A program made the position numbers and the translations under genes. The notes below the pieces were generated by a model, which ran no database searches, was not told the origin of the DNA, and saw nothing but the letters and a program-made list of their open reading frames with translations. A DNA stretch of 64,000 nt, taken from contig NZ_CAJHBU010000001.1 of assembly GCF_904846715.1 (NCBI RefSeq), positions 1 through 64,000 on the forward strand, written 5' to 3'. Below, piece by piece: positions 14,970-39,075 of this stretch; position 1 is the stretch's first letter; every line of letters starts with the position of its first letter. The DNA is from Psychrobacter vallis. Its GTDB lineage: Bacteria > Pseudomonadota > Gammaproteobacteria > Pseudomonadales > Moraxellaceae.

Positions 14970-15094
14970 TAATATGGTTAAATATTACGATTTTAGGCCC
15001 TTTATTTACATTAAGATACTGAATAAAAGAAGTGACTGGCTTAGTATCAATTATTGATATATTTCAATGAATAATTTAAAAAGGGTCATAAATC

Positions 15095-15958
15095 ATGTCA
15101 AATAATAACGTAGAAAATGAATCACCAGAAACCCGTAAGAACAGCCCTGTCACGTCTGTAGAAGTTGTAAAGGGTGATGATGTCATTTTGGATGACGATC
15201 ATTCTGATCATAAAGAGGCTAAGTCTGATAAAGAGGCTAAGTCTGAGAAAGACGACAAGTCTGAGAAAGACGACAAGTCTGAGAAAGACGACAAGTCTGA
15301 GAAAGACGACAAGTCTGAGAAAGATGACAAGTCTGAGAAAGACGACAAGTCTGAGAAAGACGACAAGTCTGAGAAAGATGACAAGTCTGAGAAAGACGAC
15401 AAGTCTGATAAAGATGACAAGTCTGAGAAAGATGACAAGTCTGATAAAGATGACAAGTCTGATAAAGATGACAAGTCTGATAAAGATGACAAGTCTGATA
15501 AAGATGACAAGTCTGATAAGAGCGTGACGATAGCCAATATCTATCAATGGGCTACTAAACTCAAAGATGACTTTATGTCTGACAAAAATGATAAGTCAGA
15601 TGACAATAAATCTGACAAGTCATCCGATAGTGATAATGCTAATGATGACAAATCAGACAGCGATAAGTCTGATAAAGATGACAAGTACAGTGCTACGGTA
15701 GCCAATATTTATCAGTGGGCTGCTAAGCTTAAAGACGACCTTAAGTCTGAAGCTTCTGGTATGACTCATGGGGTTTCTGAAAAGGCAGTTGCATTATTAC
15801 TAAACAAACTTTTAGTTGGTGTAGATACTGAATTAGAGGCCTTTGATAAAAAGGTGGAAGATTCTGAAGAATCAGTGCCTAATGCAAAAGAAGAACGCAG
15901 TAAGCTTGTTGAGAAAAAAGAGAAATACCAAGGTATGATCGATCAATTAGAAAGCTAA
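15095..15958 (+). CDS. Acidic/lysine-rich tandem-repeat protein of unknown function
   Basis: The 287-residue soluble protein has three parts. Residues 1-48 are polar. Residues about 49-138 are fifteen KS[E/D]KDD hexapeptides, almost certainly disordered and of balanced charge. The rest holds two copies of a short amphipathic module (IANIYQWATKLKDDFMSD near 150 and VANIYQWAAKLKDDLKSE near 205) separated by another KSD-rich spacer, then a C-terminal helical segment (GVSEKAVALLLNKLLVGVD to EKKEKYQGMIDQLES) that looks coiled-coil. There is no signal peptide or membrane helix. AAAAGG precedes the ATG. A terminator follows. I do not recognise a family. A desiccation-, cold- or polymer-related role is possible for such hydrophilic repeats, but that is a guess. 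Confidence 0.75.
   Translation: MSNNNVENESPETRKNSPVTSVEVVKGDDVILDDDHSDHKEAKSDKEAKSEKDDKSEKDDKSEKDDKSEKDDKSEKDDKSEKDDKSEKDDKSEKDDKSEKDDKSDKDDKSEKDDKSDKDDKSDKDDKSDKDDKSDKDDKSDKSVTIANIYQWATKLKDDFMSDKNDKSDDNKSDKSSDSDNANDDKSDSDKSDKDDKYSATVANIYQWAAKLKDDLKSEASGMTHGVSEKAVALLLNKLLVGVDTELEAFDKKVEDSEESVPNAKEERSKLVEKKEKYQGMIDQLES
15239..15508 (+). repeat. Fifteen 18-bp repeats coding for KS[E/D]KDD
   Basis: The unit AAGTCTGAGAAAGACGAC repeats 15 times without a gap. Units vary only at GAG/GAT (Glu or Asp) and GAC/GAT. The first nine all encode KSEKDD, and later ones mostly KSDKDD, so the array has diverged from one end. The low complexity opens long shadow frames on the other strands. Confidence 0.95.
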
Positions 15959-16006
15959 TCCGCCATTTGCCCAGTGTATTCGTTTTAGGCTAAAGGCACC
16001 ATATAT

Positions 16007-16050
16007 CCAGTGTTAGATGTTTGCATAAAACGTCTAACACTGGATTTTTT
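16007..16050 (+). terminator. Intrinsic terminator after the tandem-repeat protein
   Basis: CCAGTGTTAGATG pairs with CGTCTAACACTGG (one mismatch) around an 11-nt loop, followed by ATTTTTTATT. It lies 49 bp past the stop codon. Confidence 0.85.
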
Positions 16051-16199: not shown

Positions 16200-16283
16200 C
16201 ATATATTATATTCGATATTTAGAATATAAAGAGGTACTCTTTTTTCTATGCACGCTCATAAGAAGAATTATGGAGGAACCGAC

Positions 16284-16613
16284 ATGATGTATTTAAGCTA
16301 CACTCTCAAATGCTGGGCTTTAGCGGTCACTTTTTTCTTAGTATTTTACTTTATGGTGGTTATGAGTGATCCAAGCTTTAGCAAGTATCTTTATATGCTG
16401 GCGCTCAGCACTTTATTATTTCCCATCGCTAAACGTGCCATCGATGCGATGACAGATTTTTTTACATCAAAAAATGTATTATTCAATGGCTTATTACTTT
16501 CAATGTTGATTAATATTGTCATTTGGGTATTTACACCATTTATCGTGGCACTCACTGTGATTGGATTTATATTTTATAGCGTGGGCGTGCTGACAGAGCA
16601 TATCAGTCATTAG
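16284..16613 (+). CDS. Small membrane protein of unknown function
   Basis: About 109 residues. Hydrophobic segments near residues 9-25, 32-47 and 68-105 suggest three or four membrane helices, with a positively charged KRAID segment between the second and third. I choose ATG 16284 (MMYLSYTLKCW) because GGAGG stands seven bases upstream; an in-frame ATG at 16248 would add a charged leader MHAHKKNYGGTD. I recognise no family. It is a single gene, followed by a transposon-like remnant and a terminator shared with hrpA. Confidence 0.65.
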   Translation: MMYLSYTLKCWALAVTFFLVFYFMVVMSDPSFSKYLYMLALSTLLFPIAKRAIDAMTDFFTSKNVLFNGLLLSMLINIVIWVFTPFIVALTVIGFIFYSVGVLTEHISH

Positions 16614-23157: not shown

Positions 23158-24579
23158 TTACAATAAGAAAAAGTAAGCCCAAAGCCCAACGACAAACGTA
23201 GAAATGATATTCAGTATCACACCCGTACGTACCATTTCAGATTGCTTGATAAGTCCTGTACCAAACACAATTGCATTTGGCGGCGTTGCTACAGGTAGCA
23301 TGAAGGCACAAGAAGCACCAATACCAATAATCATGACCAATACTTCAGTTGGCAGACCCATTTGTTCAGCAATCGCCGCAAATACTGGTACAAGTAACGC
23401 GGCCGAAGCAGTATTAGAAGCAAACTCAGTCAAAAATATAATAAACGCTGATACTGCAATCATGACAACGATGATCGGTGCAGCAGATAGCGCATTTGCG
23501 ACTGTTTCACCCAATACTAAAGATGCGCCCGACACCTTTAAAATTGTCGATAGCGCAATACCACCACCGAATAACATGAGTACACCCCAGTCGGTATTAT
23601 CGGATACTTGCTTCCACGATACCAAGCCCAGACTAACTACTGCTGCCGCTGCTAATAAAGCAACAATAGCATCAGTGTCATCGATTCCCAGTGCTGCGCC
23701 GATTTGTTTGGAGAGTATCCAGCTCAATGCTGTGACGATAAAGACAATAATGGTCACCACACGCGGCTTATTCCAAGCAATAGGCTCATCATCAATCAGT
23801 ACAATCTTACGATTCAAGTTTGGTTTGAGGAACAAATACATCGCACCCAATAATAGTGGCAGTAGCACCAACATCATGGGGATACCAAACTTCATCCAAT
23901 CGACAAAGGCAATATCCAGTGCTTTTGCCGCGATAGCATTTGGCGGCGAACCAACAATAGTACCTAAACCACCAAGGCTGGCCGAGTACGCAATACCCAA
24001 TAATACAAAGACAAACGTACCACGATCTTTTTCACGGTCAACTTGCGTCAAAATACCGAGCGCCAATGGCAACATCATCGCGGCCGTAGCGGTATTCGAT
24101 ATCCACATCGATAAGAACGCCGTTACCCCAAATATCAGAAATACAGCCGTGCTTAGTTTGCCACCTGACATCGACAAAATCTTTAGCGCAATTTTTTTGT
24201 CCAATTTCTGCACATGTAGCGCGGCAGCCAATGCAAAACCACCAAAGAAGAGATAGATAATGGGGCTGGCAAAGCTTTGCAGACCTACTTCAGCATTAAA
24301 ATCAGGAATGCCAATTAATGTCCCAACCACAACCACTAAGATCGCCGTGATAGTGACGTGTATCGCCTCAGTGAGCCATAGCACACCAATAAAGAACAAC
24401 AATGCTAGCCCTTTGTTGGCACTGACCTCAAATGGCAATACACTATAAATAATAAAACTAATAATTGCCGCAATTGCGACTACGATCAGTCCCTTGCCCG
24501 TTCCCTTTGGGAATGTATCCGTAAATAAATACTCGTTACCATCATCAGGCAGATGGCTATCCAGTTTTTTCTCTGACAT
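23158..24579 (-). CDS. DASS/SLC13-family sodium-coupled anion transporter
   Basis: The 473-residue protein has 11-12 membrane helices. The two pseudo-symmetric Ser-Asn-Thr motifs that bind sodium and substrate carboxylate are present (WISNTATAAMMLPLA near residue 160 and EFASNTASAALLVP near 388). So is the GIGASCAFMLPVATPPNA segment. Members import dicarboxylates such as succinate, citrate or sulfate. The VATPPNA motif favours a dicarboxylate, but the substrate is not certain. AAGGATAATTT precedes the ATG. Confidence 0.9.
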   Translation of the reverse strand: MSEKKLDSHLPDDGNEYLFTDTFPKGTGKGLIVVAIAAIISFIIYSVLPFEVSANKGLALLFFIGVLWLTEAIHVTITAILVVVVGTLIGIPDFNAEVGLQSFASPIIYLFFGGFALAAALHVQKLDKKIALKILSMSGGKLSTAVFLIFGVTAFLSMWISNTATAAMMLPLALGILTQVDREKDRGTFVFVLLGIAYSASLGGLGTIVGSPPNAIAAKALDIAFVDWMKFGIPMMLVLLPLLLGAMYLFLKPNLNRKIVLIDDEPIAWNKPRVVTIIVFIVTALSWILSKQIGAALGIDDTDAIVALLAAAAVVSLGLVSWKQVSDNTDWGVLMLFGGGIALSTILKVSGASLVLGETVANALSAAPIIVVMIAVSAFIIFLTEFASNTASAALLVPVFAAIAEQMGLPTEVLVMIIGIGASCAFMLPVATPPNAIVFGTGLIKQSEMVRTGVILNIISTFVVGLWAYFFLL

Positions 24580-38972: not shown

Positions 38973-39023
38973 AAAAGTTAACTGTAAAAGGCCAGATAAG
39001 ATACTTTGAGTCAATAACTGTTT

Positions 39024-39075
39024 AAAACAGCAACGCCCTTAGCCATATTAAAACAGCAACGCCCTTAGCCATATT
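39024..39075. repeat. 26-bp tandem duplication spanning the serC stop codon
   Basis: AAAACAGCAACGCCCTTAGC plus CATATT occurs twice in direct tandem (39024-39049 and 39050-39075), without a mismatch. The right-hand copy holds the last codons and stop of serC. The left-hand copy is a non-coding duplicate of that end. Confidence 0.9.

Follow-up and report, generated by a model that had tools for sequence, protein, structure and literature searches.

Two groups of described proteins come nearest to the one considered here. For PopZ of Caulobacter, one study (PMC9512792) describes a helical C-terminus that drives condensation and a charged linker that loosens the condensates, with linker length and helix number tuning them. 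The hydrophilins form the second group: DtpA and DtpB are reported to support desiccation tolerance in Acinetobacter (PMC13232832), and PMC4190154 gives a glycine content above 6% as a hydrophilin criterion.

The window, i.e. the whole 64,000-nt stretch of Psychrobacter vallis DNA that was analysed, contains an open reading frame of 287 aa at 15095-15958 on the plus strand, starting with ATG and with its stop at 15958, as first delimited. The protein is laid out as an N-terminal motif, a polyampholyte linker, an extra helix A and a C-terminal three-helix domain. We tentatively conclude that it is most likely a genus-restricted accessory cytosolic scaffold or tether, with a probability of about 0.38.

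Organization of the protein and its variation

The linker carries the KS[E/D]KDD array, which comprises 15 tandem 18-nt units at 15239-15508 (plus strand), corresponding to residues 49-138. The initial annotation, made from the letters alone, had described 15 nearly identical hexapeptides, and this count is confirmed, with an isolated 16th copy lying outside the array at residue 191. Three different 18-mers, differing by GAG/GAT and GAC/GAT, account for all 16 DNA units, and Tandem Repeats Finder yields a period of 18 with 16.4 copies, 95% matches and a score of 480 over 15221-15516. Residues 43-143 have a charged fraction of 0.81 and a net charge per residue of -0.14, with the charges mixed nearly evenly. 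In the prediction for the full protein, residues 1-139 are without secondary structure (pLDDT mostly at or below about 50) and helices appear at 140-165, 192-220, 229-256 and 264-286, the last two making up the helical end that had been proposed.

Both IYQWA modules noted earlier are present, as TIANIYQWATKLKDDF at 15527-15574 (plus strand, residues 145-160) and as TVANIYQWAAKLKDDL at residues 201-216. According to the helix predictions, IYQWA is helix A of the C-terminal domain, an 87-residue unit (residues 201-287; 15695-15955, plus strand) consisting of helix A, helix B and helix C, and the first IYQWA of the window protein is therefore an extra helix A. This extra copy matches positions 1-26 of the C-terminal domain profile that served as our search query (profile A2) with an E-value of 5.8e-7, and it falls within the low-confidence helix at 140-165; the complete domain, itself a row of the profile, matches at 7.8e-47. 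The earlier picture of modules strung on a disordered linker thus stands as to the linker, which is predicted to be disordered, and fails as to the free beads, because the two segments are not equivalent: the second is the first helix of a conserved domain, and the other is an additional copy of that helix, found in 27 of 39 tree rows.

We collected 40 rows, namely the window protein, 34 named genome loci and five copies on four plasmid records. All 17 full-length proteins that were aligned have the three-part layout of N-terminal motif, linker and C-terminal domain, which suggests a scaffold or tether; the domain is present in every row partly by construction, since it was the search query. 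The N-terminal motif, VTSVEVVKGDDVI in the window (15149-15187, plus strand, residues 19-31), is conserved and follows approximately V-T-x-V-E-V-x-K-x-D. The corresponding regular expression matches 37 of the 40 rows and the motif is kept in 39, two of the exceptions having one I or L for V and the third, L090, being truncated. V22, E23, V24, K26 and D28 are invariant among the 17 aligned rows, and in other clades the motif continues as (V/I)YEDGDFEDYN. With L090 left out, the linkers of 39 rows range from 16 to 201 residues (median 76) and are always charged and net acidic (charged fraction 0.44-0.81, net charge per residue between -0.35 and -0.04), and the sequence of their units varies from clade to clade. 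The repeats are the part of the protein that changes fast, and the N-terminal motif and the C-terminal domain are the conserved parts.

The C-terminal domain has a median dN/dS of 0.18 and a highest value of 0.39 over 375 of 741 row pairs, only pairs with dS of 0.2-1.5 having been kept and 366 dropped. The domain is under purifying selection across Psychrobacter, and 15095-15958 is therefore no chance reading frame. AlphaFold models of 36 rows show all three helices, of which only B and C are predicted with good confidence (pLDDT about 74-88). For helix A the block means are about 58-72 in the domain's own copy and 41-56 in the extra copy, and this low confidence counts against a scaffold. The helix is amphipathic (moment about 0.46) with conserved Y, W, K and L residues. 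None of the 40 rows contains a transmembrane-like stretch (highest Kyte-Doolittle 19-mer, 1.33) or a Cys. The absence of both, together with the variable yet charged linker, the constrained helical domain and the retained extra helix A, counts for the scaffold reading.

The strongest competing reading is a protectant against desiccation or freezing, i.e. an abundant disordered chain that would shield proteins and membranes during freezing, drying or salt stress, its amphipathic helices folding onto surfaces as water is lost. The GRAVY of the window protein is -1.79, below the hydrophilin limit of -1 that 39 of the 40 members likewise respect, and its mean hydrophilicity of 1.35 exceeds the criterion of 1, although only 13 of the 40 members do so (Hopp-Woods values). 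The amphipathic helix A also fits. However, glycine makes up 1.7% of the window protein against the 6% expected, a level exceeded in only one of 40 members, Pfam gives no LEA match at E-values up to 1, and helices B and C have the look of a folded domain under constraint. DtpA and DtpB provide a precedent in a sister genus (PMC13232832); the present protein is similarly very hydrophilic and largely disordered, Acinetobacter and Psychrobacter both being Moraxellaceae, and differs from hydrophilins in its low glycine and its constrained helical domain. The record of one plasmid is Antarctic, and the names of many strains and species, read from titles, point to cold sites; against this, P. pasteurii and P. 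piechaudii, which are host-associated species, also carry the family. Four of the 40 rows lie four genes downstream of trehalose-phosphatase and OtsA-like genes (OtsA score below the NCBIfam cut-off), yet this neighbourhood is one among many sites. We regard a protectant as possible, though doubtful.

As to the extra helix A of the scaffold candidate, 27 of the rows in a tree of 39 domain rows have two IYQWA segments, and the other 12 have a single one. The one- or two-segment label changes twice on this tree, compared with 10.4 times in shuffles, and the branch of the 27 two-segment rows has support of 88/83, under the starred level of the tool. The branch also contains L047, a copy without its N-terminal part; all other rows keep the extra helix. 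A single origin of the second IYQWA copy is thus likely, and the direction of the change, i.e. that the helix was gained, is one we infer from a tree without an outgroup.

The expectation that repeat number should vary between strains is borne out by the range of linker lengths and by plasmid NZ_CP012707.1, on which two copies of a 7.65-kb segment show no substitution and a single 18-nt gap, giving 16 versus 17 KSD[T/A]ED units, where an assembly error is possible. Close relatives have six units of this type in plasmid L032, in addition to KSGTED variants, and 11 in L068 (a 9.5-kb contig of strain GP33). In genome G022 the gene is divided between contig ends (loci L010 and L025), and one of these ends adjoins an IS3-type transposase fragment, which is consistent with an insertion sequence having broken the linker.

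Taxonomic range and searches for relatives

Psychrobacter species are cold-tolerant bacteria. A search with the full protein matched 17 of 57 genomes, that of P. vallis included, all of them in one of 22 genera. Profile A2 matched 50 of 105 Psychrobacter genomes (48 of the 97 that are at least 90% complete) and, across Moraxellaceae, 50 of 299 genomes, all in one of 16 genera, Psychrobacter; none of the 15 other Moraxellaceae genera sampled has the family. The 34 named loci and the four plasmid records all belong to Psychrobacter, the phage records and viral contigs searched gave no match, and the closest named relative is in P. aquaticus CMS 56 (L064). Since 49 of the 97 genomes of at least 90% completeness are without a match, the family is dispensable for Psychrobacter, and this absence also counts against the scaffold reading. 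The protein is real but unnamed, and so far found only in Psychrobacter. The titles and abstract openings of the literature searched, mostly non-subscription papers, held no description of it, nor is it mentioned in the accessible parts of two Psychrobacter plasmid papers (PMC10457243 and PMC3346939).

The initial annotation knew of no named family, and no convincing match has been obtained from Pfam, NCBIfam, PHROG, PADLOC or fold comparison. For the window protein, Pfam returns no family at E-values up to 1, LEA and PopZ included, and the one NCBIfam match (E 0.68) is meaningless; PADLOC-DB gives no family for the three members scanned. When 18 domain members were searched singly, the best Pfam match was Phage_Mu_Gp48 (2.7e-4, two of 18 members) among 25 of 32 families listed, PopZ being absent among these 25, and the best PHROG match was 2658 (2e-4, five of 18) among 25 of 49 families listed. 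Two one-segment members match CDC45 at 5e-4 and 2e-3, under its cut-off. We read these weak matches as coiled-coil or charge composition. The best E-value of a PDB sequence search is 0.03. Foldseek against PDB and BFVD gives no match at E-values up to 0.001, and its top rows are generic helical bundles with TM-scores on the query of about 0.2-0.5 among the matches listed. Rfam yields nothing near a gathering score.

Some other proteins and repeats were noticed during the searches. Four genomes (L098-L101) encode a protein that may contain an HTH (its MerR match is weak and does not reach the cut-off) and that has a tail like helices B-C. This tail is similar to the latter half of the C-terminal domain (E 5e-7 to 4e-6), a reverse search having also been run; the protein differs in having another N-terminal part, no repeat linker and no IYQWA, and the likeness may be one of shared coiled-coil composition only. 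Urease genes are close to it at L098, L100 and L101, as checked for L098 and L101. A second relative, which seems to be broken, is found in genome G012 at L102:1471-2350; it has KSDKKD and KEQKKQDKID repeats and retains a remnant of the C-terminal tail. L028 (G030) encodes a different protein of 592 aa with a long array of EIS tripeptides between two similar stretches. In the window itself, positions 1-95 hold five perfect copies of an 18-nt unit that reads as EPIVEP repeats on the minus strand and may belong to a further repeat-bearing gene that is truncated by the window edge. A perfect 26-nt tandem duplication is located at 39022-39075, and long reading frames overlap on both strands at 23158-24579 (473 aa minus, 350 aa plus).

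Expression signals and genomic sites

Besides the N-terminal motif, the features that go beyond the initial annotation are a promoter element, a terminator and the plasmid copies. The conserved upstream element TTTACATTAA at 15005-15014 (plus strand) lies 90 nt before the ATG and is a possible activator site or UP element. A loose pattern of it occurs between -81 and -98 in the upstream sequences of 27 of the 40 family rows, compared with 0.8% of base-shuffled sequences, the related rows not being independent, and 10 of the 13 rows lacking it are one-segment rows beside oligopeptidase A, most of them with the TTTATATC form. The element resembles a 10-nt direct repeat, which makes the BfmR regulator a lead. 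A regulon sharing the element was considered and rejected in the P. vallis genome, where the extended 19-mer pattern is matched exactly once and its 20 other matches, all with three mismatches, equal the control. A putative -35 box (CTGAAT, 15019-15024) and a putative -10 box (TAGTAT, 15042-15047), together spanning 15019-15047 on the plus strand with a 17-nt spacer, are assigned from their conservation in an alignment of 37 upstreams; a consensus scanner failed to pick this pair. Downstream, an intrinsic terminator with an 18-bp stem (ATCCAGTGTTAGATGTTT / AAACGTCTAACACTGGAT) is found at 16005-16045 (plus strand). Its stem sequence occurs nowhere else in the P. vallis genome with up to three mismatches; stems of similar sequence lie 3' of 11 of 40 members in a scan, and at none of the plasmid copies.

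The gene, with its promoter element and partly its terminator, occupies many chromosomal sites as well as plasmids. Seven of the 40 rows lie in the neighbourhood seen in the window, ten beyond oligopeptidase A (six with pnp on the far side), four downstream of the trehalose genes, three after porphobilinogen synthase and carboxypeptidase-like genes, and 16 elsewhere, including the five plasmid copies. In at least seven of 105 genomes the gene is within about 3 kb of hrpA, as judged by coordinates, and contig ends may hide more. We found no clean empty site at hrpA; genomes without the gene match the hrpA side and not the other side of the window locus within 1.5 kb. When rows of the clade of the window protein are compared with those of neighbouring clades, DNA similarity often starts 87-95 nt before the ATG, as in 11 of the 16 different-site pairs of groups 3 and 4 that give a value, and in some pairs it stops 73-100 nt after the stop codon; in another clade, 113-395 nt of upstream sequence are common to different-site pairs. 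The limit at about 90 nt, taken as a candidate edge of a mobile unit, is weakened because members at the same site lose similarity there too, and such limits may therefore show constraint instead. L084 (a 791-kb contig) and plasmid L033 have the upstream gene in common, which suggests that chromosome and plasmid have exchanged DNA.

The many sites, the lack of an essential role and the broken copies in some genomes might also be those of a selfish or neutral gene with mobility as its only trait. We hold this to be very unlikely, as the domain and the motif are constrained over deep divergence and no neighbouring gene accompanies the family at all sites. It is unlikely, too, that the protein acts as an adaptor to some component of the membrane, the nucleoid or a plasmid, with helix A binding lipid or a fixed receptor and the N-terminal motif carrying a client. 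The amphipathic helix with its conserved Y, W, K and L and the copies on four plasmid records would agree with such a role, and the lipid-binding score decides nothing, as it runs from 0.4 to 1.0 depending on the frame. However, the majority of the 40 rows lie on contigs that are chromosome-sized or unplaced, and no gene or neighbour cluster is common to all sites.

The small membrane protein encoded next to the gene at 16248-16613 raises the idea of a toxin, bacteriocin or anti-phage factor with this neighbour as its immunity protein. It is weakly like colicin E1 immunity (Pfam E 0.0038; 17.5 bits versus a cut-off of 25), and the distribution of the family is patchy. Among 30 hrpA loci examined, however, 22 belong to genomes that have no family match, and the neighbour is nevertheless present at 20 of these; its cluster occurs only at window-type loci (six of 40 rows, flanks up to 8 kb); moreover, PADLOC has no match for the three members, and none occurs in phages or viral contigs. 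Because the gene and its neighbour are uncoupled, this reading is largely refuted and hardly credible.

Proposed mode of action and comparison with PopZ

In the scaffold or tether that we prefer, the N-terminal motif would bind a partner, and the charged disordered spacer, whose length drifts through gain and loss of 18-nt units, would hold the two ends apart. The predicted three-helix domain may assemble with itself or with a partner. The second helix A copied in one lineage would add valency; alternatively, it might compete with the domain's own helix A, leading to chain swapping and cross-linking. The gene, found at different sites, would have travelled, promoter included, between chromosomal sites and plasmids. 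The analysis defines an unnamed family at many sites in one genus, with its own promoter, and provides a natural series in which linker length (16 to 201 residues) and the number of IYQWA copies (one or two) vary on one conserved domain. This series is useful for asking how spacer length and valency govern the behaviour of disordered proteins of the scaffold or stress type, perhaps also at low temperature.

The comparison with PopZ is one of analogy only, as the searches revealed no kinship with PopZ or another scaffold in sequence or in fold. The linker here is a Lys/Asp polyampholyte, in contrast to the proline-rich acidic linker of PopZ: proline amounts to three of 287 residues in the window protein, whose linker is built of Lys, Asp, Glu and Ser, and to at most 1.9% of the whole protein in the 40 members, versus 23-29% of the PopZ linker. 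The N-terminal motif is predicted to be without structure, whereas the client-binding part of PopZ is helical; the family is confined to Psychrobacter, and its duplicated helix is helix A. It is quite unlikely, in our estimate, that the protein is an independently evolved PopZ-like condensate scaffold in which nature has varied both spacer length, through the unstable 18-nt array, and sticker number, through helix duplication. If it were, the unstable array could allow a condensate property to switch from cell to cell, and plasmids would distribute versions of the scaffold that are already tuned. The likeness itself lies in the architecture. The C-terminal region of PopZ is helical and oligomerises, and the three C-terminal helices predicted here may or may not do so; by comparison with the published description of PopZ (PMC9512792), both proteins arrange a short N-terminal interaction region, a charged disordered linker of variable length and a helical C-terminal region in the same order, with linker length and helix number as the adjustable features in both.
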